From: Gloeobacter kilaueensis JS1
Lineage (GTDB): Bacteria > Cyanobacteriota > Cyanobacteriia > Gloeobacterales > Gloeobacteraceae
Length of the DNA: 64,000 nucleotides
Direction: 5' to 3'
Assembly (NCBI RefSeq): GCF_000484535.1
Contig: NC_022600.1
Coordinates: forward strand, 4,518,234 to 4,582,233
Shown here: piece by piece, positions 11,046 to 57,490 of the stretch
Numbering within the stretch: the stretch's first letter is position 1
Layout of the letters: each line of letters begins with the position of its first letter
Program-made: the position numbers and the translations under genes
The notes under the pieces: model-generated
Seen by the model: the letters and a program-made list of their open reading frames with translations, nothing else
What the model was told of the DNA's origin: nothing
Database searches by the model: none

Positions 11046-13193
11046 ATGTTCATAAGAGTAACGAACAACTTGAGTGTTTTGTTCGCATCAACAGTGTGCT
11101 CGCTACTTTTTGCTACGCCTCCTGTAGTTGCACAAGTATCACCAGATGCTCTCTCGTGCGGAAACTTAACTCCCGTAAGCAAATCTGATACGAGTAAGCC
11201 TAATATGGTGACCTTTGCATCAAATCTTAGCTACGATACGGGGGACACCACAATTGGGGGGCTTTGGGAAAAATCTGCAGCAGGTAGTCAAGGATATCCG
11301 ATTAATTACGCGTCCTATATCAATGCCCTTGGTCAACCTCTTCCAGGCTATCCAACTACTATAAGTCAGCTTATTACTCCTGATGCTATTGACTCCATTG
11401 TGGTCAATGCAGTTGTGGATGGCATGCCTTACTCACAAATATACCCTACTAGTGCTTTTTTTGATGCTAAAGCATATAAAGCTGGCACTGTTATTACACC
11501 TTCTTCTGGTTCAAGTGCAAACCAGACTCAGGCGTATCTCGATTATTTAGGTACATCACCAGCTGGGACTGCACCTCCCAGTTTAGGATTTCTTCGGCCA
11601 ACGCCCTATCTATTATTTTGGACAGCGGCAGGTGTGAGCATAGGTTCATCTACAATAAGTTACGCTGATAATCCTGCGAAACGTGTAGCTCTTTGGCAAT
11701 CCATAGCTTGTAAGCCCACTTCAGGAGCAAACAATGTGCAGACTGGAGCGTTCGTCCTGTACAATCCAGAAGTAGCCATCAATTCTGCTCCAATCGCGTT
11801 TACGGGTGTAGGTATTCCTGCCTCTTTCAATGCATATGCAGTTGTCATTACGGGCTTAAATCCTGCAGAAGGAGAGATTGGCACCGCACTATCTGTGGGA
11901 GGGTATAATCTCAAACAATCTGCAAGCGGTAACCCAGCAAAAATTTCCTTTTTCAATCCTAGTGGTAATGCTGGTATTGAAAGCAGTCCACCAGCATTTG
12001 TGCCGTCTGGTGCTCCCAATGATGGAACAATATTGCAAGCCACTGTTCCTCCTGGTGCTGCTACCGGCAGGGTCTCAGCTACGGCAGACTCTATTACTTA
12101 CTATGGACCCAGCTTTCGAGTAGATGTTCCCTTGCCCCCCGTAATTGTTGCTCTTTCAGTATCTAGCGGCCCAATCGGCTCAACAGTTGTTATAACGGGT
12201 AGCGGCTTCTCCAGCACCAGTGCGGTCACTCTGAACGGTACTGTTGCTAGCTTTGTCATCAACTCAGATACTCAGATCACGGTGACTATTCCCCCCGGTG
12301 CCACCAGCGGCCCAATTCAAATTACCAATGCTGGTGGCTCTGTAAATGCCGGTACTTTTACGGTGGTTCAAAAACCTGCTGATTTTACAGGTGATGGCAA
12401 GAGCGACATTCTCTGGCGCTATCAGGGAACAGGTTCCAAGCAGGGCTACAACCAGGTCTGGCAGATGAATGGCACCAGCTATGTCACGGCGATCAACCTC
12501 AACACGACCACCGACCTCAACTGGCAAATAGTCGGCACCGGCGACTTTACGGGCGATGGGAAGACTGACATTCTCTGGCGCTATCAGGGCACAGGTTCCA
12601 AACAGGGTTATGTGCAGATCTGGCAGATGAACGGCACCAGCTACGTAACGGCGATCAACCTCGACCCTGTCACCGACCTCAACTGGCAGATAGTTGGTAC
12701 TGGTGACTTTACAGGTGATGGCAAAACCGACATTCTCTGGCGCTACCAGGGAACAGGCTCCAAACAGGGCTACAACCAAGTCTGGCAAATGAACGGCACC
12801 AGCTACGTCTCTTCAATCAACCTCAACACGACCACCGATCTTAACTGGCAGATAGTTGGCACCGACGACTTTACAGGCGATGGGAAGACTGACATTCTCT
12901 GGCGCTACCAGGGCACCGGCTCCAAGCAAGGGCTCAATCAAGTCTGGCAGATGAACGGCACCAGCTACGTAACGGCGATCAACCTCGACCCTGTCACCGA
13001 CCTCAACTGGCAGATAGTTGGTACTGGTGACTTCACAGGTGACGGGAAGACCGACATTCTCTGGCGCTACCAGGGCACCGGTTCCAAGCAGGGCTACAAC
13101 CAGGTCTGGCAGATGAACGGCACCAGCTATGTCACGGCGATCAACCTCAACACGACCACCGACCTCAACTGGCGGATCAGAGGACCGCGCTGA
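11046..13193 (+). CDS. Secreted IPT/TIG and FG-GAP (VCBS-like) repeat protein
   Basis: A 715-residue exported protein. A signal peptide (LFASTVCSLLFATPPVVAQ) leads into an N-terminal domain of unknown type (about 35-265). Two IPT/TIG-like immunoglobulin folds follow (VVITGLNPAEGEIGTALSVG; then PVIVALSVSSGPIGSTVVI). The C-terminus (about 446-712) has five 54-residue FG-GAP units starting DFTGDGKTDILWR, whose acidic loop should bind calcium. Units end in LNWQIVGTG, and the last is cut short (LNWRIRGPR). It is probably an adhesive or carbohydrate-binding surface protein. The 5' two-thirds is AT-rich, while the repeat DNA is GC-richer, suggesting the repeats were acquired or copied separately. 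Confidence 0.8.
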   Translation: MFIRVTNNLSVLFASTVCSLLFATPPVVAQVSPDALSCGNLTPVSKSDTSKPNMVTFASNLSYDTGDTTIGGLWEKSAAGSQGYPINYASYINALGQPLPGYPTTISQLITPDAIDSIVVNAVVDGMPYSQIYPTSAFFDAKAYKAGTVITPSSGSSANQTQAYLDYLGTSPAGTAPPSLGFLRPTPYLLFWTAAGVSIGSSTISYADNPAKRVALWQSIACKPTSGANNVQTGAFVLYNPEVAINSAPIAFTGVGIPASFNAYAVVITGLNPAEGEIGTALSVGGYNLKQSASGNPAKISFFNPSGNAGIESSPPAFVPSGAPNDGTILQATVPPGAATGRVSATADSITYYGPSFRVDVPLPPVIVALSVSSGPIGSTVVITGSGFSSTSAVTLNGTVASFVINSDTQITVTIPPGATSGPIQITNAGGSVNAGTFTVVQKPADFTGDGKSDILWRYQGTGSKQGYNQVWQMNGTSYVTAINLNTTTDLNWQIVGTGDFTGDGKTDILWRYQGTGSKQGYVQIWQMNGTSYVTAINLDPVTDLNWQIVGTGDFTGDGKTDILWRYQGTGSKQGYNQVWQMNGTSYVSSINLNTTTDLNWQIVGTDDFTGDGKTDILWRYQGTGSKQGLNQVWQMNGTSYVTAINLDPVTDLNWQIVGTGDFTGDGKTDILWRYQGTGSKQGYNQVWQMNGTSYVTAINLNTTTDLNWRIRGPR
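12381..13190 (+). repeat. Five tandem 162-bp coding repeats
   Basis: Units begin at 12381, 12543, 12705, 12867 and 13029, an exact period of 162 bp (54 codons). They differ from one another at a few percent of bases, mostly silent. Alternate units share TTTDLNW or PVTDLNW versions, suggesting expansion by two-unit steps. The near-identity implies recent duplication or gene conversion, and the copy number is likely to vary between strains. Confidence 0.9.
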
Positions 13194-16682: not shown

Positions 16683-17088
16683 TTTGTTGAACACCAGTGG
16701 CAGGGCAGCAATCTAGTGTTTGCTGTTCGGGCCTGGCTCATGAGCAGGCAATCTCAAAATCGAAGAACAAGCAGGTGATGCCAGGACGGCTGGATAGCCA
16801 GTCCCACAACAAGTTGTGTGCAGCTCCAGCCCGCCGACCTGCTAAAGTACCTGCTAGATGCGCCAGAAGATTAAACTGCCTGGACTGGTAAGACCCAGGC
16901 CGAGTCGAGGAAGGGGGGTAAGCTTGCTTCGAGATTTATAGCAACTCGAGTTTATTCAGGAAAAGGAAACTGCGGTGAAGTTTCAAAGGTAGAGGCACCT
17001 ATCAAATTCTCCCGCAAGTGGAAAGGGCAGGGACGATTAGCGCACGAAGCTGAACGAAACACAGAATAGGAAAGAAGGGGGGTAGATC

Positions 17089-17229
17089 ATGAAACACTGC
17101 TCGTTCAGCAAGCTCCTAAGCCGAGGCAAAACAGATCCATCAACCCAGGTCGGGTTGAAGAAAATGCTCCACTTCACCAGGGTTTTGCTGAACGTATCGG
17201 TTGTGCTTTTCGGGGGGGTATCCGGCTAG
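17089..17229 (+). CDS. Possible 46-residue peptide with hydrophobic C-terminus
   Basis: A short frame from ATG 17089 with an AAGGGGGG ribosome site about 8 bases upstream. It has a basic N-terminal half (KHCSFSKLLSRGKTDPSTQ) and a hydrophobic end (VLLNVSVVLFGGVSG). No family is known. It faces the two-component/exporter island and could be a small membrane or signal peptide, but chance cannot be excluded. Confidence 0.3.
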   Translation: MKHCSFSKLLSRGKTDPSTQVGLKKMLHFTRVLLNVSVVLFGGVSG

Positions 17230-17416
17230 TTAGGAATACAGAGTGAGTACTGGGGGGATTGGGCTGGGGGATGCTAGAGAATGTTAGACTCCCAACAAGA
17301 GATAGACCTGAGTATAGGCGTGTTTCCCAAGGCTGTGTACTAGCTCAAGGGACAGGTTTTGAAGAATGGACGAGCACGACTAGAAATCTGCGTTGTCTAC
17401 GAATCTAGTAAAGAGA

Positions 17417-17453
17417 GTAGAGAATCTTTCATAACTAACTACAAGTTCTCTAC
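17417..17453 (-). terminator. Weak hairpin after the response regulator
   Basis: Arms GTAGAGAA (17417-17424) and TTCTCTAC (17446-17453) pair perfectly across a 21-base loop, 14 bp past the regulator's stop. The minus strand then reads TCTCTTTACT, a poor T-tract, so termination is only possible. Confidence 0.3.
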
Positions 17454-17466
17454 CTGAACGCCAAGA

Positions 17467-18096
17467 TTAGGGTTCAAAATAGATCAGTCCCCTTTTTGCT
17501 GCTTCTGCCACTGCTGCAGCTCTATCTCCAACGCCCAACTTGCGAAAAAGATTTACTCTATGAAACCTAATAGTACTCTCAGAGCAGCATAGCGCCTCTG
17601 CCATTTTGTCTACTGAATGGTTTGCTGCCAGCAGCTTGAGCACTTCATGTTCTCGGTCTGTCAGTGTCAATGGCCGCTGATCTGCCAATTTCAGTGCCAC
17701 TTCAGGAGAGATGTGTTCTTTCCCTTCATGAATAGCCAGTAGTGCAGCGTGCAACTCGTGAGGTTGACAGCCCTTGAGCAGATAACCTCTCGCTCCAGCT
17801 TTTAAAGCCCGGTCGATGTCATCGACACCGCCTATAACAGTCAGAAGCAGTATCCTAGCTTCTGGCCACTTGTGACGTATCGCTATGGTTGCTTCAATGC
17901 CATCCATCACCGGCATACGCAAGTCCATTAAGATCACATCTGGCTGATGAAGCAATGCCATCTCTATGGCTTCGCGCCCATTCTCAGCTTGGGCGACGAC
18001 GAGCATCCGAGTGTCACGTTCGATAAATGTGATGAGGGTACTGCGAATTAGGGCCATGTCTTCAACGCAAAGAATCCGAATTCGATCCATGCTCAC
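17467..18096 (-). CDS. NarL/LuxR-type response regulator
   Basis: A 209-residue two-component regulator. The receiver domain (about 5-125) has acidic E12/D13, phospho-acceptor D58 in VILMDLRMP and the conserved Lys in RGYLLKG. The C-terminal LuxR helix-turn-helix (about 145-205) has LTDREHEVLKLLA and CCSESTIRFHRVNLFRKLG. The start overlaps the kinase stop by 4 bp (ATGA), so they are co-translated. It is the last gene of the minus-strand island operon and presumably controls that operon or targets elsewhere. Confidence 0.93.
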   Translation of the reverse strand: MSMDRIRILCVEDMALIRSTLITFIERDTRMLVVAQAENGREAIEMALLHQPDVILMDLRMPVMDGIEATIAIRHKWPEARILLLTVIGGVDDIDRALKAGARGYLLKGCQPHELHAALLAIHEGKEHISPEVALKLADQRPLTLTDREHEVLKLLAANHSVDKMAEALCCSESTIRFHRVNLFRKLGVGDRAAAVAEAAKRGLIYFEP

Positions 18097-19916
18097 TGCC
18101 TGAAATCTCCATTTATGATGGGTACCTCCAGTTCTACCCGTGTACCCTGCCCCTCAACACTCTCTATTTTCAAATTCCCGGAAATTGCCTTAGCACGCTC
18201 GTGCATAATGACGAGCCCTTTGCCTCCGTGATCAGCGCTCAATACTAGTTTGGTATCGAACCCCAACCCGTCGTCTTGAACACAAACTCGGACTGCATTC
18301 ACACTGCGAAACAGTTCCAGATGAACGGTACGCGCCTTACCATTCACGAAGGCATTACGCACTGCCTCCTGAGCGATAAAGTATACGTTCCTGCGAGCCT
18401 CAGTAGGCAGTTCCGGCCCTTTCCCATTCACCGACAAAATCAACTGATTTTTGGCTTTCTCCCATTCTTCTACAAGGCCGCGCAAGCCCTCCTCTAGATT
18501 CACATTCGCCAACCTTGGATCGATACTAAGTGCTGATCTGCGTATTTCTTGGAGCCCTTGCTGTAGAGCTTCTTGCAAGTTCTCCAAAGCCAACGATGCC
18601 TCTTCAGTATCAGGGAGATCTTGTTCTATCGCATCTCGTACTATATAACCGTATGTTTTGCTCAAAGCTATATATTGGCCAACGGTATCGTGAACCATAC
18701 TGGCGAACTCATTCTTTCTCTGGGCAACGATTACAGCTATCCTCTGATCTTGTGCTACCTGTCTGAATCTTTCAGCTTCTTCCTCGGCAATGATCGCCTT
18801 TTTTTCATAATCGCGTTGTCGTGCGTAAAATAGTCCAATTATTGTTAATGCAATAATAAAGATGCTGCCCGCAACTGCAACAGCCCCATACCAGAAACGA
18901 TCCAATCTGAAAAAGCTCTCGTGAATAGATAAACTAAGAATCCCGACTGGAAAAATATCCGGTGAAATAAAATGTGAAACCTTTCGAATTTGGATGCTAT
19001 GATCCCACAGGGGATTTGCAGAGACATAATGTGGTGCGTCTCCAAGGACCACCAGTCCCCAGTAGGTCTGACCATTTTTCAATACTCGCTCTGCAATAGC
19101 TTCAGGCATAGTTACTCCGTACAACCGGTCGATTCTATCCTCCTTGTGCAAATTGGTAGCAATTGCAATATTATCTGCATAGATCGTTACTTCATCTTCC
19201 GCTGCATGGGTTATAAGCATCCGATCCACCAACGTTGGATCGCCGTTTAGCAGCATTCCCGAAATAGCCAATCCCCCAGGGATCTCTCTACTGCTCACGA
19301 TGGCGAGGTTGTGTACTCCCCCTTGTCCTTTCAAACCCAATCTCATCAATATGGACGGGCTAACCCGCTCAATGCCGCTGAACGTTCTTCCCAGGCGCAA
19401 GCTGTCACGAACAATTCCAAATTCCGCGAGCGATTCACCAATTAGCGGAAGCGTGTCATGGTATTGGAGCCTATGCTCAGGAACAGCGAATTCGGCTGGC
19501 ACCCAACGTGGCTCCACGATTTGCTCTTGGTCTGGGCGCATTAGTATCTGTTTGGAGTCGAGGCTCCTATCGAGTATCCGGCTCATACCAGAAGTGATCC
19601 GACCCGCTCCGTCTGTAATAACTATGAAAGACAGCTCGTATTCGCTAAGGTCATTGTGCAATGTCTTAGGCATGGGAACACCCTTACCAGAGCCTATTAA
19701 TTCTCGCATTAGCGCCGTGTGATCCTCAATGCGGCTTCGCTTTTGCCTCAGAATGTCTTCAAAAGCGATACGGTCCCCTTCAAACCAGTAGCCCGTCAAT
19801 CTCACATAAAAATCATAAATCCAGTTATTGTATCCAATCGCCGTTACGATACAGGCAATACCGATTGCAATCATAGTAGTAAAAAGCCATTTAGAACTGG
19901 TCGATAATTTATTCAT
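18093..19916 (-). CDS. NarL-family sensor histidine kinase with Cache-like sensor
   Basis: A 607-residue membrane kinase. Helix 1 is at about 10-30 (FTTMIAIGIACIVTAIGYNN) and helix 2 at about 343-364. Between them is a large periplasmic domain. Its distal half (about 205-335, VTIYADNIAIATNLH, then GQTYWG, then PVGILSLSIHE) looks like a Cache fold. The HisKA_3 box has H409 in MVHDTVGQY. The ATPase domain shows QEAVRNAF and DDGLGFD, then GGKGLVIMHERA. It signals to the adjacent regulator. Its start overlaps the permease stop by 8 bp, tying sensing to the exporter. The ligand is unknown; a small molecule or peptide in the periplasm is plausible. Confidence 0.9.
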   Translation of the reverse strand: MNKLSTSSKWLFTTMIAIGIACIVTAIGYNNWIYDFYVRLTGYWFEGDRIAFEDILRQKRSRIEDHTALMRELIGSGKGVPMPKTLHNDLSEYELSFIVITDGAGRITSGMSRILDRSLDSKQILMRPDQEQIVEPRWVPAEFAVPEHRLQYHDTLPLIGESLAEFGIVRDSLRLGRTFSGIERVSPSILMRLGLKGQGGVHNLAIVSSREIPGGLAISGMLLNGDPTLVDRMLITHAAEDEVTIYADNIAIATNLHKEDRIDRLYGVTMPEAIAERVLKNGQTYWGLVVLGDAPHYVSANPLWDHSIQIRKVSHFISPDIFPVGILSLSIHESFFRLDRFWYGAVAVAGSIFIIALTIIGLFYARQRDYEKKAIIAEEEAERFRQVAQDQRIAVIVAQRKNEFASMVHDTVGQYIALSKTYGYIVRDAIEQDLPDTEEASLALENLQEALQQGLQEIRRSALSIDPRLANVNLEEGLRGLVEEWEKAKNQLILSVNGKGPELPTEARRNVYFIAQEAVRNAFVNGKARTVHLELFRSVNAVRVCVQDDGLGFDTKLVLSADHGGKGLVIMHERAKAISGNLKIESVEGQGTRVELEVPIINGDFRQ

Positions 19917-22311
19917 ATCTTAGAGCCTCTAAAGGGTCCAATGCAGCAGCGGAGCGAGCAGGCAGCCAGCTTGCAATCACGGCAACTACCAATAGAGCTA
20001 CAGACAGTAAGGCATTCAACCAGAGGCTATTCTGCTGCAAGCCAATTACTGCGCTCGTTATTATTGAAAATACTAGTAAGTAGAGGCAAAAACCTAGGGC
20101 AATGCCGATGGTAACTGTAACCAAGGTTCTCGCTATTATTTTGCGGACAATTGCCTCTGGTGTTGCCCCTAACGCAAGCCTCACTCCAATCTCACGGGTT
20201 TGAGCAGAAATCCGAAGGGTTACCTGGCCGTAGACTCCCAAACCAGAAAGAACTATTGCAGCGAACGCGAAAGTCGCGAGCGCTAATGTAAGAGTGCGGG
20301 CCTGACTTAAGTTTTTCTCAAGTAATTGTTTGCCGGATAATATCACAATTCCTAGTTCCGGGTCTTCCCCGAGTAGAGTTTTATTGGCAGCAGGCGCAAG
20401 GGATTCTGGATTGACATAAGTTCGTAGCACGACAGCTACCCCCTCCCATTGATCCTGGCTATAGGGTCGGTATAATTGCGGCCCTGGCCGCTCGGCGAGC
20501 GAGCGTTGATAAACGGACGCTACCACACCGACGATTTCGAGCCATCCATCGGCAATTTCCAGTTTGACGCGCTGGCCAATGGGATCTACGTTTGAAAAAT
20601 ACTTTCTAGCAAACACATCGTTGATTACCGCAACTTGCATCGATTTTGAACTATCTACTTTATTAAAGACCCTTCCAGCCAGCAACGGTATGCCCATCGC
20701 TTCAAAATATCGTTCGCTCACTGACGCATAATCAACTGTGAAAGGTTGCAGGATGGACCTTCCAGCTATTTTTTCTACCTTCGGATAAGAGCTGATGCCT
20801 GAAAGTGGCAGTGCTGTCGTCCAGGCTGAGACAGCTACGCCTGGCTGCAATTCCAGCTTGCTCAATACCGTATCGCTGAAAGTCTTTCTGCTTTCCGCTG
20901 CTTTATATCGCGCTGAATCAAGCGTCGTTTGTATACTCAGCAGCGATTGTGTCTGAAATCCTGGCTTGACCGACTGCAGAGCCCACAAGGCTCCACCTAC
21001 AGTTGCTGCTGTGCAGAGCAGCACCAGCGCGAGAGCCATCTGTAGAGAGACAAATCCCTCCAGTACTCTTCGAATTATTGGTCGCGTCCCTGGTTGCGTG
21101 TCCTTTATACTTGGGATCGACGCCAGACCACGAGTAAGAAACAATGTAGGCAGTCCACCGGCACTAACGCTACAAACAAAGCAGATTGCTGTCACGAATA
21201 CGATCACGGGCCAGTCCCAGCTAAAAAGGGTGTATTGCATCGAGGGAAGTGCAGCTCTCGATAGCCCTTCTAGACCAAGTGCCAGGACTACTCCTCCTAC
21301 TAGGCTAGCGGTAGTAAGTAACGATCCTTCAAGAGCCAACTGCTTGAGTAGGGCTATCTGTGTCGCTCCCAAAGCCGACCGGATTGCAATTTCTCTATTC
21401 CTTGTGATTAGCTGAGCACTGCTCAAATTCGCAACGTTTATACAGGCGAGCATCAATAGCAGGAATACTGCGATTGCAAGCAGATTGAGTGAAGAGGAAG
21501 AATTTGCATTCATGTACTCGCGCAAAGGCAGTAGGATCACCCCGTAGTCTTTGTTCTCGCGAGGATACTCCTTTGCTAGCTGTTCACGAATTCCTTGCAT
21601 CTCCTTTCGCGCACTTAAAATGCTGGTACCTGCTCTTAGGCGAGCGATTCCTATAAGCTGGAGCCGGTTGTTGCGATCTAAGAAGTTTGAGCTATCTTTT
21701 AAATGTTGGGATTGCTGAACAAGAACGCCTAGTGGTATCCAATAATCTGCGATTTTCGGGAATGCAAAGCCTGGTGGCATCACCCCAATAATTGTAGTTG
21801 GCTGGCCGCCGAGAGAGGCTGTTCTACCTAATATTCCTGGATCTGCCGCAAACCATTGTCTCCACGCTCGATCGCTTAGAATTACTACTCGAAGACCCAA
21901 GCGATCCTCCCTCTCATTGAAGGTTCGACCCAGACGCGGCGTTACTCCAAGAGTCTGAAAAAATGCAGGATCAACGTTTGCACCGATAAGAGGAACTACT
22001 TTCTCTTTATCTTTCAAGGCTGCTTGAAATAGCGCATAGCCAGAGAGATTAGAAAACGAGTGTGCTAACCCACGCCAGTCAAGGTAATTAGGGTAGGAAA
22101 CCGAAACTGGTTGTCCCCCATCGGTCTCTCTGACTATCACGAGTTGCTGCGAATCGACATATGGCAATGGTTTGAGAAGTGCAGTGTAAAAGGCGCTAAA
22201 GACAGAAGTGTTTGCTCCGATCGCTACTGCCAAGGTGAGAACAATAGCCATCGAGTATGACCAGTTGCGCTTCAGATATCGCAGACCATGCCATAAGTCT
22301 AGAACGCTCAT
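19909..22311 (-). CDS. ADOP/MacB-type ABC transporter permease
   Basis: From ATG 22311 an 800-residue duplicated permease. It has two MacB periplasmic core domains and FtsX membrane domains: one helix near residue 25, three near 275-390, a helix near 430, and three at the end (TLALATFAFAAIVLSGLGVYG onward). The motif ALGATPEAIVRKIIARTLVT is the usual coupling-helix region facing an ATPase. The start forms an ATGA overlap with the truncated ATPase gene, so the two were an operon. An upstream start at 22329 is less likely. No intact ATPase or membrane-fusion partner remains nearby. It might use another ATPase in trans or work mechanically with the adjacent kinase as a sensor. Confidence 0.88.
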   Translation of the reverse strand: MSVLDLWHGLRYLKRNWSYSMAIVLTLAVAIGANTSVFSAFYTALLKPLPYVDSQQLVIVRETDGGQPVSVSYPNYLDWRGLAHSFSNLSGYALFQAALKDKEKVVPLIGANVDPAFFQTLGVTPRLGRTFNEREDRLGLRVVILSDRAWRQWFAADPGILGRTASLGGQPTTIIGVMPPGFAFPKIADYWIPLGVLVQQSQHLKDSSNFLDRNNRLQLIGIARLRAGTSILSARKEMQGIREQLAKEYPRENKDYGVILLPLREYMNANSSSSLNLLAIAVFLLLMLACINVANLSSAQLITRNREIAIRSALGATQIALLKQLALEGSLLTTASLVGGVVLALGLEGLSRAALPSMQYTLFSWDWPVIVFVTAICFVCSVSAGGLPTLFLTRGLASIPSIKDTQPGTRPIIRRVLEGFVSLQMALALVLLCTAATVGGALWALQSVKPGFQTQSLLSIQTTLDSARYKAAESRKTFSDTVLSKLELQPGVAVSAWTTALPLSGISSYPKVEKIAGRSILQPFTVDYASVSERYFEAMGIPLLAGRVFNKVDSSKSMQVAVINDVFARKYFSNVDPIGQRVKLEIADGWLEIVGVVASVYQRSLAERPGPQLYRPYSQDQWEGVAVVLRTYVNPESLAPAANKTLLGEDPELGIVILSGKQLLEKNLSQARTLTLALATFAFAAIVLSGLGVYGQVTLRISAQTREIGVRLALGATPEAIVRKIIARTLVTVTIGIALGFCLYLLVFSIITSAVIGLQQNSLWLNALLSVALLVVAVIASWLPARSAAALDPLEALRYE

Positions 22312-22658
22312 TGCGCTGCTCTTCCCCAAGAAGGTATACCGAGGTCGTTGCTATCTATTTGCTCGGCGGAGACAACCTTGCCATCGAGCAGGTGGATACT
22401 GCGCCCGGCAAAACCGGCAAAGCGCGGATCGTGGGTGACCATGCAGATCGTCGCTCCCCCGGCGTGCAACTCCGCCAACAGGTCCATCACCGCCTGACCG
22501 TTGACCGAATCGAGGTTCCCCGTCGGCTCGTCCGCCAGCAAAATCGCCGGTGAACCCGCCAGCGCACGGGCGACGGCGACCCGCTGCTGCTGACCGCCCG
22601 ACAGTTGGGCCGGGTAGTGTCTGGTGCGGTGGCTCATCTCGACGCGCTCAAGGAGCAC
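22308..22658 (-). pseudogene. C-terminal half of a MacB/LolD-type ABC ATPase
   Basis: The frame encodes the signature LSGGQQQRVAVARALA, Walker B with D-loop ILLADEPTGNLDS and the H-loop MVTHDPRF. The Walker A loop and the first half are missing. An in-frame TGA lies just above the only GTG start (22658), and the sequence further upstream is unrelated and AT-richer. The fragment itself is GC-rich like the core genome, unlike the genes around it. Without Walker A it cannot bind ATP normally. It is a relic of the exporter that once served the neighbouring permease. Confidence 0.88.
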
Positions 22659-22777
22659 TCACGGTGGATATTTCCTGCTCAAGGGACTCTAGAATTATGC
22701 CCCTAAAAGTGTCATATCACCCCTGATTTGCAGCTTGCGAAGGATGCCCACTTGCCGAATAGAAAATACCTTTTGCC

Positions 22778-23953
22778 TCAATCAAAAAGTGCTGCAAAGC
22801 TTGCTGATGAGCAAAGCACCTCATAGACGTGTTCCATCAAGTAGATCAGATCCGCACAATATACAGACGGATTCCTAAATTCGCCTTGCAAGGAGTATCG
22901 GTGTGATAGAAGTCCCCCGCCACACTGATCCAACCAGACGCAGTTCCTACAGGTCTGGCTTAGGTTTTGTCTTGGTTTCAAGATCATATCCACGATCGGA
23001 TTTTGCATTACGCAATCAATGGTGTTTCTGAGCACATTGAATCTCGTCTTTGTAATGCCTGGGGCACAAGATTTGAAATAGTCGGGCGGTTCAAGGCCGC
23101 CATCCGTTTCGACCACAACCACCGGAAGCGGCTGCAGCCCCCAAAAAGCATGAGGGATGACCTTGCCCATCATGATTCCCAACAAATCTTCAAAAAAACC
23201 AATTCGTACCTGCGGGTTGCCCTCTTCCATCCATAAATCAAACAACTGGGTCAGATACTGGCCGTATACCGGCGGATCCCCAGCTATAGGCGGATCGCAA
23301 TGATGATGGTCTGGAAGCAGAATATCAAAGTCAAATAGTCTTAATTCTTTTCTGAAATAAGCGTACAATTCTTCTGCCGGAAGAGCTGGATCTAATACAC
23401 TGAGGGTTCCACTAAATTGCGCTTGCCCCTCTGGAGTGCTCATCATTAATTTGACTGCCCGTTCGGCTGACTCGTGTGAACCCACTCCCGAAGGATAAGG
23501 CCGGGCAAGATCGTGATGATTTTTTGGTCCATCCAGGCTCACTCCAACATGCACATTGAGCATCCGCAAGTGTGTCAGCCAATCTTTGTCTAACAGAGAA
23601 CCGTTGGTTAAAATACTGAAGCGGGCATCAATCAACACTTCACGCACAATAGATACAAAATCTTCTATCCGCTCTTTGCCATAAAGCAAGGGTTCTCCAC
23701 CATGAATGGAGATCCAAATTTCCCGATCCCTGTCTGAGCATCCATGCTTATCTAGATGCTCGCCAATGCGGTTTGCTGCGGCTCGCACGACTCGTGGATC
23801 CATAAAAAAAGGCTGATCTCGATAAGAGTCGTCACCTTTTCTATACATATAGCAATAACCGCAGGCGAGATTGCAGCGGCTGGCTACTTTAAATACAAAA
23901 TTTCTGATTGGGAGCGAGCAATTATGCTCTAGAGCCTGTTCACCCACAGTCAT
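22778..23953 (-). CDS. Radical SAM/SPASM peptide maturase, FxsB-like
   Basis: A 391-residue radical SAM enzyme. The first cluster is C27-NLA-C31-GY-C34 in SRCNLACGYCYMY, with SAM-binding HGGEPLLYG and LTNGSLLD and the VGVSLDGP strand. A C-terminal SPASM domain has cysteines in YFKSCAPG, QTCRNCVWLDQCGGG and NPSVYCADL for extra 4Fe-4S clusters. The layout and the CGGGLLSHRY...NPSVYCADL ending resemble the FxsB and related cyclophane-forming maturases, which cross-link side chains in a precursor peptide. Its ATG shares one base with the stop of the 76-codon gene upstream (TAATG), which points to that product as substrate. The exact chemistry is not evident. Confidence 0.85.
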   Translation of the reverse strand: MTVGEQALEHNCSLPIRNFVFKVASRCNLACGYCYMYRKGDDSYRDQPFFMDPRVVRAAANRIGEHLDKHGCSDRDREIWISIHGGEPLLYGKERIEDFVSIVREVLIDARFSILTNGSLLDKDWLTHLRMLNVHVGVSLDGPKNHHDLARPYPSGVGSHESAERAVKLMMSTPEGQAQFSGTLSVLDPALPAEELYAYFRKELRLFDFDILLPDHHHCDPPIAGDPPVYGQYLTQLFDLWMEEGNPQVRIGFFEDLLGIMMGKVIPHAFWGLQPLPVVVVETDGGLEPPDYFKSCAPGITKTRFNVLRNTIDCVMQNPIVDMILKPRQNLSQTCRNCVWLDQCGGGLLSHRYSLQGEFRNPSVYCADLIYLMEHVYEVLCSSASFAALFD

Positions 23954-24183
23954 TAAAGCAAAATATCTTTACTTTCTTTGGATGCGGCAGGGCTCGTAGA
24001 ATTCGGAATCGTTTGGCTAACAGGAGGTTTATCTCGCGGGAAGCCAATCAACCACTTTCCAGCTTCCCTGTGCGACAGCTTTTCGAGGATATGTGTTCCC
24101 TTGGGGGCCAATGCGGCTAAAGCAATAAGTATAGCCACATGTAGCAGGACCGTTTTGTTGGAAGAACCTTGAGAGCTATTCAT
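23953..24183 (-). CDS. Candidate RiPP precursor peptide
   Basis: A 76-residue protein that I cannot assign to a family. It has a hydrophobic stretch at 11-26 (TVLLHVAILIALAALA), a basic, aromatic middle (HREAGKWLIGFPRD at 38-51) and a Pro/Ser-rich tail ending in KDILL. It has no Cys. The stop overlaps the maturase start (TAATG), so translation is coupled, the usual arrangement for a peptide and its modifying enzyme. The W44-L-I and F48-P-R tripeptides are possible three-residue cross-link sites by analogy with cyclophane RiPPs. Against this, the tail lacks the FxSxx end of FxsA, and the N-terminal helix could mean a membrane accessory protein instead. ATG 24183 has no good ribosome site. Confidence 0.55.
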   Translation of the reverse strand: MNSSQGSSNKTVLLHVAILIALAALAPKGTHILEKLSHREAGKWLIGFPRDKPPVSQTIPNSTSPAASKESKDILL

Positions 24184-24442
24184 GGTGTTTATTCATTTAG
24201 CAGTGTAAAGCCATTTAGGCAGTGGGTCGTTTTATCGGTGATCTGCGCCCTTTTTCGTCTTCCGAAGCTCCGGCTGACTGTGGATAACTATAAGAGCAAA
24301 CCTTATTAGCAAAAACATTATACAAGAAGAACTTGGAGGTTCACTACCTCAGGGCAACATGTCGGATACGGCTAAGGTTTCTTGGTATTGATTCAATGGG
24401 AGTTCATAGTGCAGGAAAGCTCCGTGCTGTAAGCGAGTGCGG

Positions 24443-24662
24443 TTGTAACTTTCCTGGGGCGACTGACAAACAGCATATCCCTCAGCCGCTCCAGCTCGAT
24501 CGTGCCATCGACGCTCAAATCTGGCCGCACTCCAGCAGGGAGGCTGCTCATCAGGCGCAGTCTACTGTCACCGTCCCGTTTGCACCGCCGGGTCGATCGC
24601 GCCACCGTGCCTGTAACCGCGCCGTTGTACGTATCAACGCAGCTGTTGCGCGGCTGCTCGAT
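24443..24662 (-). pseudogene. HlyD/MacA-like membrane-fusion protein remnant
   Basis: Minus-strand reading gives VDTYNGAVTGTVAR, then, one frame over, IDPAVQT, then GTVTVDCAL in the third frame, and finally LPAGVRPDLSVDGTIELERL and LFVSRP in the first frame again. This is the C-terminal barrel of HlyD-type periplasmic adaptors interrupted by three single-base deletions. The N-terminal coiled coil is gone. The direction and position suit the first gene of the adaptor-ATPase-permease operon whose other parts lie at 19.9-22.7 kb. The peptide and maturase genes now sit between its parts. Confidence 0.8.
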
Positions 24663-24824
24663 TTTAGAAAGAAGTCTGCACCGCCAGGATGTCGTGTTTA
24701 TCTTTAGAAACCCTGTTTGTGGCTCCGGGGGAACCGTACCGTCCTGCGCCTGTGCTCGTGCAACAATGGACCGATAAAGTTTCAACTTTCCCGGTTATGG
24801 GTCTGTCGCCTCGTCTGTCGCTGC

Positions 24825-54509: not shown

Positions 54510-54869
54510 ATGGGTGGCGAGTTGCGGAGTCCAGGACCGCTGACGAGTGCGGAGTTTCAGATTCTGCTGGCACTGGCGGACGGCGAGCGCCACGGCTACG
54601 CAATCATGCAGGAGATCGAAAAGCGGACGGGCGGGCAGGTGCGCCTGGGAGTGGGCACGCTCTACAGTTCCCTCAAGCGCATGTTGCAATCGGGCTGGAT
54701 CGAGGAGTGCCAGTGGCGACCGGACCCGGCGATCGATGATGAGCGTCGCCGCTACTATCGCCTTTCGGATCTGGGCAGGCGGGTGGCCCAGGGGGAAGCG
54801 CTGAGGCTGGCGGGATTGGTAGCCGACGCACGGACAAAGAAGCTCTTGCCGGTGGTGGAGGGAGGCTGA
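54510..54869 (+). CDS. PadR-family regulator
   Basis: A 119-residue winged-helix regulator: FQILLALADGERHGYAIMQE, then VRLGVGTLYSSLKRMLQSGW and the wing with RRRYYRLSDLG. It lacks the long C-terminal helix of classic PadR, as in the short form that regularly precedes ADOP permease genes. The stop overlaps the permease start (TGATG), so they are co-translated. The palindrome upstream is its probable operator. Confidence 0.92.
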   Translation: MGGELRSPGPLTSAEFQILLALADGERHGYAIMQEIEKRTGGQVRLGVGTLYSSLKRMLQSGWIEECQWRPDPAIDDERRRYYRLSDLGRRVAQGEALRLAGLVADARTKKLLPVVEGG

Positions 54870-57490
54870 TGCGGGTAGTAGATCGGCTCTACGGGTTATT
54901 TTTGCGCCTTTATCCTTCTGAATTTCAGCAGGAGTACGCCGATGAGATGCAGCAGGTTTTTCGGCAGGCGTACCGCGAGCAGCGCGAAGACAGTGGCGGG
55001 CGGGCAGCCCTCTGGTGCGCAGCTACATTTGGAGATCTGGTGATGACAGCGATCAAAGAACAGTTGCAGGTTCTCCAGCAAGATCTGCGCTACGGCTGGC
55101 GGATGCTCATTAAAAACCCTGGCTTTACGGCGGTGGCAGTGCTCACCCTGGCTCTGGGAATCGGGGCGAATACAGCGATCTTCAGCGTCGTCAACGCTGT
55201 GCTGTTGCGCACTTTGCCCTATCCCGAACCGGAGCAGTTGGTGCAGGTCTTCGAGAGCCAGTTGCAGCAGGGGCTGGAAAAGGGGGCAGTTTCACCCCCC
55301 AACTATCTCGACTGGCGACAACAGAACCGGGTCTTCACGAACATAGCTGTCTACAACACGGACCAGTTCAGCTTCAAGAGCGGTTCGCAGCCGGAGCGGC
55401 TGAACGGTGCGTTTATCTCAGCCGATTTTTTTAAGACCCTCGGGGTGCGGCCCCTCCTGGGACGCGACTTGTCGCCCGAAGAAGAAAAAACAGGCCACGA
55501 CCGGGTAGTGCTTTTAAGCTATCGCCTCTGGCAGGAGCGCTTCGGCGGCAATCCGGCGGTTTTAGGCAGAGTGATCACTCTGCAGGCAAGGCCATACACG
55601 GTGATCGGAGTGCTGCCACCAGGATTTGCCTTTCCAAGGGACAAGACAGAAATCTGGGTGCCCCTTGCCTTCGGTGAAGCGAAGATGCAAGAGCGTGACA
55701 GCCACTTTCTTAACGGCATCGCTCGCCTGAAACCAGGCATCAGCCTCGCGCAGGCCAGTGCGCAGATGGATGTGGTGAGTGCTGCCCTCGCCCGGCAGTA
55801 CCCGGACTCCAATACCAACCGAAAAGCGCTGCTGGTGCCGCTCTACGAGCAACTGGTGGGCAAGATCCGGCCAGCATTGCTATTGCTGCTGGCGGCAGTC
55901 GCTGCCGTGCTGCTCATCGCCTGCGCCAACGTCGCCAATTTGCTGCTCTCGCGGGCTGTGAGCCGCCAGAAAGAGATCGCCGTGCGCACCGCCCTCGGGG
56001 CGAGCCGGGCCCGGATCCTCCGGCAACTCTTGACTGAGAGTATCCTCCTGGCGCTTCTTGGGGCGCTGTTGGGGCTGGGGTTCGCCCTGCTGGGACTGAA
56101 GATGCTGGTAGCGACGATTCCGCGCAGCCTGCCCCGGATCGATCAGATCGCCCTCGACGGACCGGTGCTCGTCTTTACCCTCGCTGTAGCGGTGCTGAGT
56201 GCGGTTCTCTTTGGCCTGGCACCGGCACTGCAGGTTTCAAAGACCGACTTTAACGAGGCGCTCAAAGACGGAGGCCGAGGCGCGACCAGTAGCCGCGAGC
56301 GCAACCGCGTGCGCGATCTGCTCGTTGTCTCGGAGGTGGCGCTGGCTTTAATGCTGCTTGTGAGTGCCGCCCTGCTCACCCAGAGCTTTTTGAACTTGCA
56401 GAACGTCAAACCGGGTTTTCGGCCCGAGCAGGTGGTAACAGCCACCCTCTCCCTGCCTCTAGCCCGCTATCCGGAGGAGCGCCAGCAGATCACCTTCTTT
56501 GATCGGCTGATCGAGCGGGTGCAGACATTGCCGGGTGTGGAGTCGGTGAGCGTCGTCAACACCCTGCCGCTGGGCGGCAGTGACTCAAGCGTCACTCTTC
56601 TTGTCGAGGGCCAGTCCAGACCTAAGCCTGGCCAGGAACCGCTTTCGGGATATCTGGCGGTTGGCCCCGAGTATCTGCGCACGATGGGTATTGTGCTGCT
56701 GCGGGGACGCCCGCTCAGTCCCCTCGACAACGCCCAGACGCCTAAAGTGGCGCTCATCAACGAGACGATGGCCCGCCGCTTCTGGCCCCACAGCGATCCG
56801 ATCGGCAAACGCTTCAGTACGGACATGCCCGTGCCCAAAGCCGACAGCTGGATCACCGTCGTCGGCATCGTTCAGGATACGCGCTTTCTCGGGCTCAACC
56901 AGGCCATTCGCCCTGAGATGTATCTACCTTACAGACAAGCTGCCTGGCCTTACATGTCCCTGGTCGTCCGCACCACCAATAGCGATCCAGCCACACTTGC
57001 CGCAACTCTGCGCGCCCAGGTGCAGGCCATCGATCCAGACCAGGCTCTGGGGACGATCAAGACGATGGAGCGCGTGGTCGCCGATTCGATCGAACAGCAG
57101 CGCTTCAACGTGTTGTTGCTGGTGAGTTTTGCCGTTGTCGCCCTGATTCTGGCCAGTATCGGTATCTACAGCGTCATGGCCTACTCCGTCACCCAGCGCA
57201 CCCACGAAATCGGTGTCCGCCTCGCCCTCGGGGCACCCCAGGGCAAGATTCTCGCCCTGGTCGTCACCCAGGGAATGCTACTGGTACTCTCGGGAATACT
57301 CGTCGGGCTAGGGGCAGCAGTTGTCCTCGCCCGCGCGCTCTCAAGCCTGCTTTTTGGCGTCAGCGCCTTCGATCTGCCCACCTTCGCCGCCGTCTCGGTA
57401 CTGATTTTGGCCGTTGCCCTCAGCGCCTGTTATCTACCAGCCCGCAGAGCGACCCGCGTCGATCCGATGGTTGCCTTGCGCTACGAATAG
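54869..57490 (+). CDS. ADOP-family duplicated ABC permease
   Basis: An 873-residue MacB/FtsX-type permease. The first 90 residues carry the extra ADOP N-terminal segment (RLYGLFLRLYPSEFQQEYAD). Then come membrane helix, MacB periplasmic domain (SPPNYLDWRQQNRVFTNIAV), three helices, a helix near 490, a second periplasmic domain and three last helices. The coupling region ALGASRARILRQLLTESILL is typical. No ATPase gene is adjacent, which is usual for these orphan permeases. Co-regulated with PadR; the substrate is unknown. Related to the permease at 19.9 kb. Confidence 0.92.
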   Translation: MRVVDRLYGLFLRLYPSEFQQEYADEMQQVFRQAYREQREDSGGRAALWCAATFGDLVMTAIKEQLQVLQQDLRYGWRMLIKNPGFTAVAVLTLALGIGANTAIFSVVNAVLLRTLPYPEPEQLVQVFESQLQQGLEKGAVSPPNYLDWRQQNRVFTNIAVYNTDQFSFKSGSQPERLNGAFISADFFKTLGVRPLLGRDLSPEEEKTGHDRVVLLSYRLWQERFGGNPAVLGRVITLQARPYTVIGVLPPGFAFPRDKTEIWVPLAFGEAKMQERDSHFLNGIARLKPGISLAQASAQMDVVSAALARQYPDSNTNRKALLVPLYEQLVGKIRPALLLLLAAVAAVLLIACANVANLLLSRAVSRQKEIAVRTALGASRARILRQLLTESILLALLGALLGLGFALLGLKMLVATIPRSLPRIDQIALDGPVLVFTLAVAVLSAVLFGLAPALQVSKTDFNEALKDGGRGATSSRERNRVRDLLVVSEVALALMLLVSAALLTQSFLNLQNVKPGFRPEQVVTATLSLPLARYPEERQQITFFDRLIERVQTLPGVESVSVVNTLPLGGSDSSVTLLVEGQSRPKPGQEPLSGYLAVGPEYLRTMGIVLLRGRPLSPLDNAQTPKVALINETMARRFWPHSDPIGKRFSTDMPVPKADSWITVVGIVQDTRFLGLNQAIRPEMYLPYRQAAWPYMSLVVRTTNSDPATLAATLRAQVQAIDPDQALGTIKTMERVVADSIEQQRFNVLLLVSFAVVALILASIGIYSVMAYSVTQRTHEIGVRLALGAPQGKILALVVTQGMLLVLSGILVGLGAAVVLARALSSLLFGVSAFDLPTFAAVSVLILAVALSACYLPARRATRVDPMVALRYE

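Follow-up and report, generated by a model that had tools for sequence, protein, structure and literature searches.

A 76-residue protein of Gloeobacter kilaueensis JS1 and the radical SAM/SPASM enzyme encoded directly behind it are very probably a precursor and maturase of the triceptide kind, the precursor belonging to a family undescribed in the libraries searched. Both genes lie in a 64,000-nucleotide stretch (the window; positions 4518234-4582233 of a single-contig genome of 4,724,791 bases). The reading that we favour, and regard as probable, is a triceptide-kind RiPP cassette with a Phe48-Arg50 ring and periplasmic export. The system is not categorically new; it extends a known peptide class, the triceptides, by a new branch. 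With it, this young RiPP class gains an uncurated precursor family from cyanobacteria at the base of the phylum, and the predicted Phe-to-Arg cyclophane is a residue pair absent from those given in PMC11002830. The cassette comprises the following features, compared with copies on pGMOR1, a plasmid of G. morelensis, and in the Gloeobacterales MAG ES-bin-141:

23953..24183, minus strand: candidate precursor, 76 aa, ATG start, assigned by family comparison
22778..23953, minus strand: radical SAM/SPASM maturase, 391 aa, predicted cyclophane synthase
22374..22655, minus strand: C-terminal half of an ABC ATPase, without the Walker A half; 80% identical over 94 aa to the pGMOR1 ATPase
19909..22329, minus strand: MacB-like permease of the ADOP family, 806 aa, intact; 38% identity to those of pGMOR1 and ES-bin-141
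18093..19916, minus strand: sensor histidine kinase with a Cache domain (sCache_3_3)
17467..18096, minus strand: response regulator that partners the kinase; 46% identity to its pGMOR1 counterpart
24456..24755, minus strand: remnant of a HlyD/MacA-type periplasmic adaptor, about residues 257-354 of the pGMOR1 adaptor

On the minus strand, the TAA of the small ORF (23955-23953) and the ATG of the maturase (23953-23951) have base 23953 in common (TAATG), the one-base overlap that the preliminary description had reported. A scan for promoters and terminators returned no more sites than were found in shuffles.

The ORF sequence also bears out the earlier account of the small product as having a hydrophobic stretch and W/F tripeptides but neither Cys nor an FxSxx end. 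The hydrophobic stretch covers residues 12-26 (0 of 1000 shuffles as high) and is followed by a leader helix motif, ILEKL, at 32-36, and by the tripeptides W44-L-I and F48-P-R50. The latter lies in the core KWLIGFPRDKPP and is the predicted cyclophane site. Compared with the precursor families of NCBIfam and Pfam, the protein gave nothing above cut-off. The YhhA precursor model NF041705, which Vibrio YhhA matches at 61 bits, did not match it. A match to Pfam Cbl_N3 (E 0.01, under the gathering score) was taken as chance.

We searched 96 genomes with the 76-residue protein as sole query. The best non-self match was in G. morelensis (E 0.002, 36% identity), and a lower-ranked one was in ES-bin-141 (E 0.056). 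Each of these two places immediately precedes a maturase homologue (49% and 50% identity). The window's own genome holds a second maturase (45% identity) with a 75-aa ORF upstream. In all, Gloeobacterales genomes yielded five maturases, and a comparable small ORF immediately precedes four of them. The fifth, in ES-bin-141 (L020 3785-4694), is cut by a contig end; a GFxR ORF was sought upstream and none was found, what looks like a Uma2-like gene lying there instead, and because the contig ends inside the gene we counted this locus neither for nor against the pairing. The maturase is absent at E 1e-40 from three other Gloeobacterales genomes (G001, G002 and G004), in which the precursor family profile found no match better than E 0.08; over six Gloeobacterales genomes the profile recovered no extra copies. 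Thus the small gene, whose absence beside close maturase homologues had been proposed as the test of the pairing, accompanies four of the five, and the accompanying search for a better precursor next to them turned up no other conserved small ORF.

The four small proteins share more than position. Their alignment has nine invariant columns, including G47, F48, R50, P53 and P54, and three of them carry an ungapped 22-residue leader-core block (LEKLSHREAGKWLIGFPRDKPP / IDKIIKKDEKTWMIGFPRGRIP / LERVTGTSEGEYVIGFRRFGPP) that ends [WY]-h-I-G-F-x-R. The block scores 129, against a mean of 32 (sd 8, maximum 59) in 60 shuffles (z = 12). GFxR is the sole spaced triplet common to all four, and its occurrence together with the shared following dipeptide was matched in 1 of 6000 shuffles. 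Leave-one-out profiles run at genome scale recovered three of the four members at the same place, each as the top match in its own locus (window, E 1.7e-6; pGMOR1, 0.009; ES-bin-141, 0.049). The fourth member, from the second locus of the window's own genome (GFNRGPYRPP), was missed by the profile of the other three; having only GFxR..PP in common with them, it is assigned by core motif and position only. The family is therefore very small, with three clear members and one by core only.

Judged by these comparisons, the association of small ORF and maturase is beyond chance, and the 76-aa gene is shown to belong to a small family directly upstream of this maturase clade. The pairing of precursor and maturase that had been suggested is thus supported by co-occurrence, by position and by the leader-core block conserved between independent loci of Gloeobacterales, and the 76-aa protein is very probably the substrate that the maturase makes into a ringed peptide. 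The small protein might instead stay unmodified, as a membrane-bound partner, an immunity protein or a chaperone for the maturase, with the true substrate encoded elsewhere. Its clear hydrophobic segment would suit such a role, which had been offered before as an option, but the conserved block is carried by the soluble tail. A membrane-bound partner is less likely because that tail, rather than the hydrophobic segment, is the most conserved part. With no other conserved small ORF beside the maturases and no further copies from the family profile in six genomes, we regard an unmodified partner as very improbable.

We next consider the enzyme to which this substrate would be presented. The maturase has C27xxxC31xxC34 and GGEP motifs, and C296, C335, C338, C344 and C366 in its SPASM region. 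The three core cysteines and C335, C338, C344 and C366 are invariant or nearly so among 28 relatives, so the full CxxxCxxC and cysteine-rich SPASM end noted at first sight are both real and kept in relatives. The nearest NCBIfam model is that of YhhB (NF041707), at 307.2 bits, 138 bits under its cut-off of 445; the FxsB model (TIGR04269) gives 294.8 bits, with a cut-off of 370. Reference scores were 522 for Vibrio YhhB and 476 for Actinoplanes FxsB, and the three other Gloeobacterales copies that were scored are likewise under both cut-offs (312-339 bits to TIGR04269). Being under both cut-offs, the maturase belongs to neither FxsB nor YhhB by curated rule. In a 92-row tree, built by a quick method with SH-aLRT support only, the five enzymes from Gloeobacterales group together as a clade (SH-aLRT 100), sister to a Calothrix plasmid enzyme (SH-aLRT 96) and apart from the YhhB and actinobacterial FxsB groups; the window's maturase is the longest branch in the clade. 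Its initial designation as FxsB-type is therefore apt as a broad relationship and too narrow as a family assignment. The AlphaFold model of the enzyme (mean pLDDT 91.4) matches the ChlB-ChlA crystal complexes 9gmc and 9gm3 best in the PDB (TM 0.88, 32% identity), followed by anSME.

Of the three features that mark a triceptide system, two were found: a radical SAM/SPASM enzyme related to known cyclophane synthases, and an adjacent precursor with a conserved aromatic-x-X motif, here GFxR in four loci. The third, a C-C bond from the aromatic ring to C-beta at i+2, is predicted here. For YhhB, links from Tyr and from His to the Arg C-beta are reported, XncB links Trp to Arg or Asn, and MscB links Phe to Ser, the cross-links joining residues i and i+2 (PMC11002830). 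In YhhA-type precursors of Vibrio, of Rhizobium and of two cyanobacteria the motifs are YDR, HHR or HNR, and HNR; the F-x-R conserved in the four loci has the same aromatic-x-Arg spacing. F-x-R also occurs in small ORFs by related maturases in Calothrix (LFSRCP), the cyanobacterium G147 (AFSRGILFSRS) and Taibaiella (PFSRSAFSRSS); we use only these named cases from a survey of aromatic-x-Arg in all small ORFs near 92 maturases, aromatic-x-Arg being common by chance in GC-rich Actinomycetota. The predicted modification is a three-residue cyclophane joining Phe to the Arg C-beta at F-x-R. By analogy, the conserved motif fits the i/i+2 geometry of YhhB with Phe as the donor, and we infer the bond itself from that fit.

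Three members also conserve the W44/Y-h-I that precedes the core, which leaves room for a different or an additional cross-link. The 76-aa protein could then be the substrate of a reaction other than an F-x-R cyclophane, such as a Trp or Tyr ring at W/Y-h-I or another radical reaction, all the more as the SPASM fold alone is compatible with several kinds of chemistry and anSME ranks just behind ChlB among the structural matches. The fourth locus, however, lacks the W/Y yet keeps F-x-R, the nearest characterised relatives use an Arg acceptor two residues past the aromatic (PMC11002830), and ChlB is the closest solved fold. We therefore think a modification of another kind unlikely and retain the Phe48-Arg50 cyclophane as the predicted product.

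In the mechanism that we propose, the conserved helix that precedes the core (xILEKLx) would be bound by the maturase, which, using SAM and a SPASM iron-sulfur cluster, would take a hydrogen from the beta-carbon of Arg50; this carbon would then be joined to the ring of Phe48 to give one three-residue cyclophane (F-P-R, -2 Da). All four small proteins have an N-terminal hydrophobic stretch ahead of the region of the conserved block, with small-x-small sites within or after it that could serve signal peptidase, and this segment is plausibly a signal peptide. In the window's protein it would be a Sec signal with cleavage at ALA|PKG, so the cross-linked peptide would reach the periplasm, from which a MacA/MacB-type exporter could expel it. 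The exporter's permease adjoins in the window; in G. morelensis its adaptor and ATPase are part of the cluster, and in the window's genome they would have to act in trans. Control or sensing of the system probably falls to the Cache-domain kinase and the regulator encoded next to it.

On pGMOR1 the gene order runs adaptor (HlyD), precursor, radical SAM enzyme, ABC ATPase, ABC permease, Cache-domain kinase and response regulator, all intact. The intact copy brings a predicted cyclophane-type peptide together with both a MacAB-type exporter and a two-component system, which makes chemistry, export route and signalling directly testable there. In ES-bin-141 the genes for precursor, maturase, permease and kinase follow one another, with no adjacent ATPase or adaptor. 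Each of the four loci has a Cache-domain kinase, accompanied in three by an adjacent response regulator. The window keeps the pGMOR1 order, with an adaptor remnant of about 100 residues and an ATPase that begins after Walker A. An intact adaptor-ATPase pair without a permease, 67% and 71% identical to that of pGMOR1, lies at 2665514-2667492 of the same genome and could serve the exporter in trans.

The broken exporter means that the window's copy may be in decay. The whole cassette could be a relic of a once complete cluster, without a product, which would be compatible with the triceptide reading for the intact copies. The shortened adaptor, the ATPase without Walker A and the longest maturase branch in the clade are in keeping with decay, as is base composition: precursor, maturase, permease, kinase and regulator have 46-49% GC, and the two remnants and the flanks 60-65%, so that GC-rich remnants accompany a low-GC island (45-50%, compared with about 63% in flanks). 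Precursor, maturase, permease, kinase and regulator are nevertheless all open, the maturase keeps its conserved residues, ES-bin-141 likewise does without a clustered ATPase and adaptor, and the intact distant pair is available. A relic is thus a real but doubtful prospect for the window's copy. The island itself (16900-24500, with about 60-66% GC around it) contains the whole cassette and was likely acquired horizontally.

We then compared the Gloeobacter cassette, read as a triceptide system, with known systems. It resembles YhhA/YhhB and ChlA/ChlB, which make Tyr/His-to-Arg cyclophanes at YDR, HHR and HNR, in its SPASM fold, in a short precursor directly upstream and in the aromatic-x-Arg core motif. 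It differs from them in its predicted donor (Phe, not Tyr or His), in having one motif rather than three, in the signal-peptide-like N-terminus of the precursor and in that no fused or adjacent hydroxylase was seen. With FxsA/FxsB (FxSxx-COOH, Actinomycetota) it shares a related maturase and Phe as probable donor; unlike that system it has a maturase of a separate clade, a precursor without the FxSxx end, Arg as predicted acceptor and 13-33 residues following the Arg. As in darobactin/dynobactin clusters (DarA-DarE), peptide, radical SAM enzyme and MacB-type exporter are clustered together, but the maturase is far from DarE (50.9 bits to NF038005, cut-off 650), a darobactin-type core is absent and a two-component system is included. 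GrrA/GrrM and OscA/OscB are likewise cyanobacterial cyclophane systems with radical SAM/SPASM enzymes; the Gloeobacter maturase, however, stays at 75 bits where the GrrM/OscB cut-off is 310, and its precursor lacks the glycine-rich repeat. The suggestion of a new precursor class without FxSxx can therefore be kept as a new precursor family, since no NCBIfam precursor model matches and the core is G-F-x-R instead of F-x-S, whereas the kind of chemistry expected is not new.

At its widest, the proposal would be a Gloeobacterales-specific RiPP family with a Sec signal on the precursor, a Phe-Arg cyclophane made in the cytoplasm, MacAB-type export from the periplasm and sensing by a dedicated Cache-domain two-component system. 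We hold this only tentatively, as an idea more apt to fail than to stand; if true, the cyanobacteria that branched off earliest would use a cyclophane peptide for signalling or warfare.

Several further observations were made near related maturases. Two cyanobacteria (G594, locus L104, and G141, L021) have YhhA-type precursors ending SYDRMHHRHNRS beside fused maturases of more than 720 aa, and the opening residues of the G594 enzyme are identical to those of crystallised ChlB. Small proteins at L022 12489-12776 and L097 9745-9942 contain a doubled FSR (AFSRGILFSRSTS; PFSRSAFSRSSP); these, from another cyanobacterium and Taibaiella, are possible two-ring FxR peptides. The second, diverged copy in the window's own genome (L017 6323-11988, about 1043322-1048987) comprises Cache kinase, regulator, the 75-aa precursor and maturase, followed by an HtrA-like trypsin/PDZ protease, a possible processing enzyme for the peptide. 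Elsewhere in the window, 54869-57490 is a further large gene for a MacB-like permease, next to which the ORF list shows no recognisable ATPase or adaptor, and 11046-13193 encodes a protein with near-identical tandem repeats (TGDFTGDGKTDILWRYQGTGSKQGYNQVWQMNGTSYVTAINLN) that looks FG-GAP/VCBS-like.
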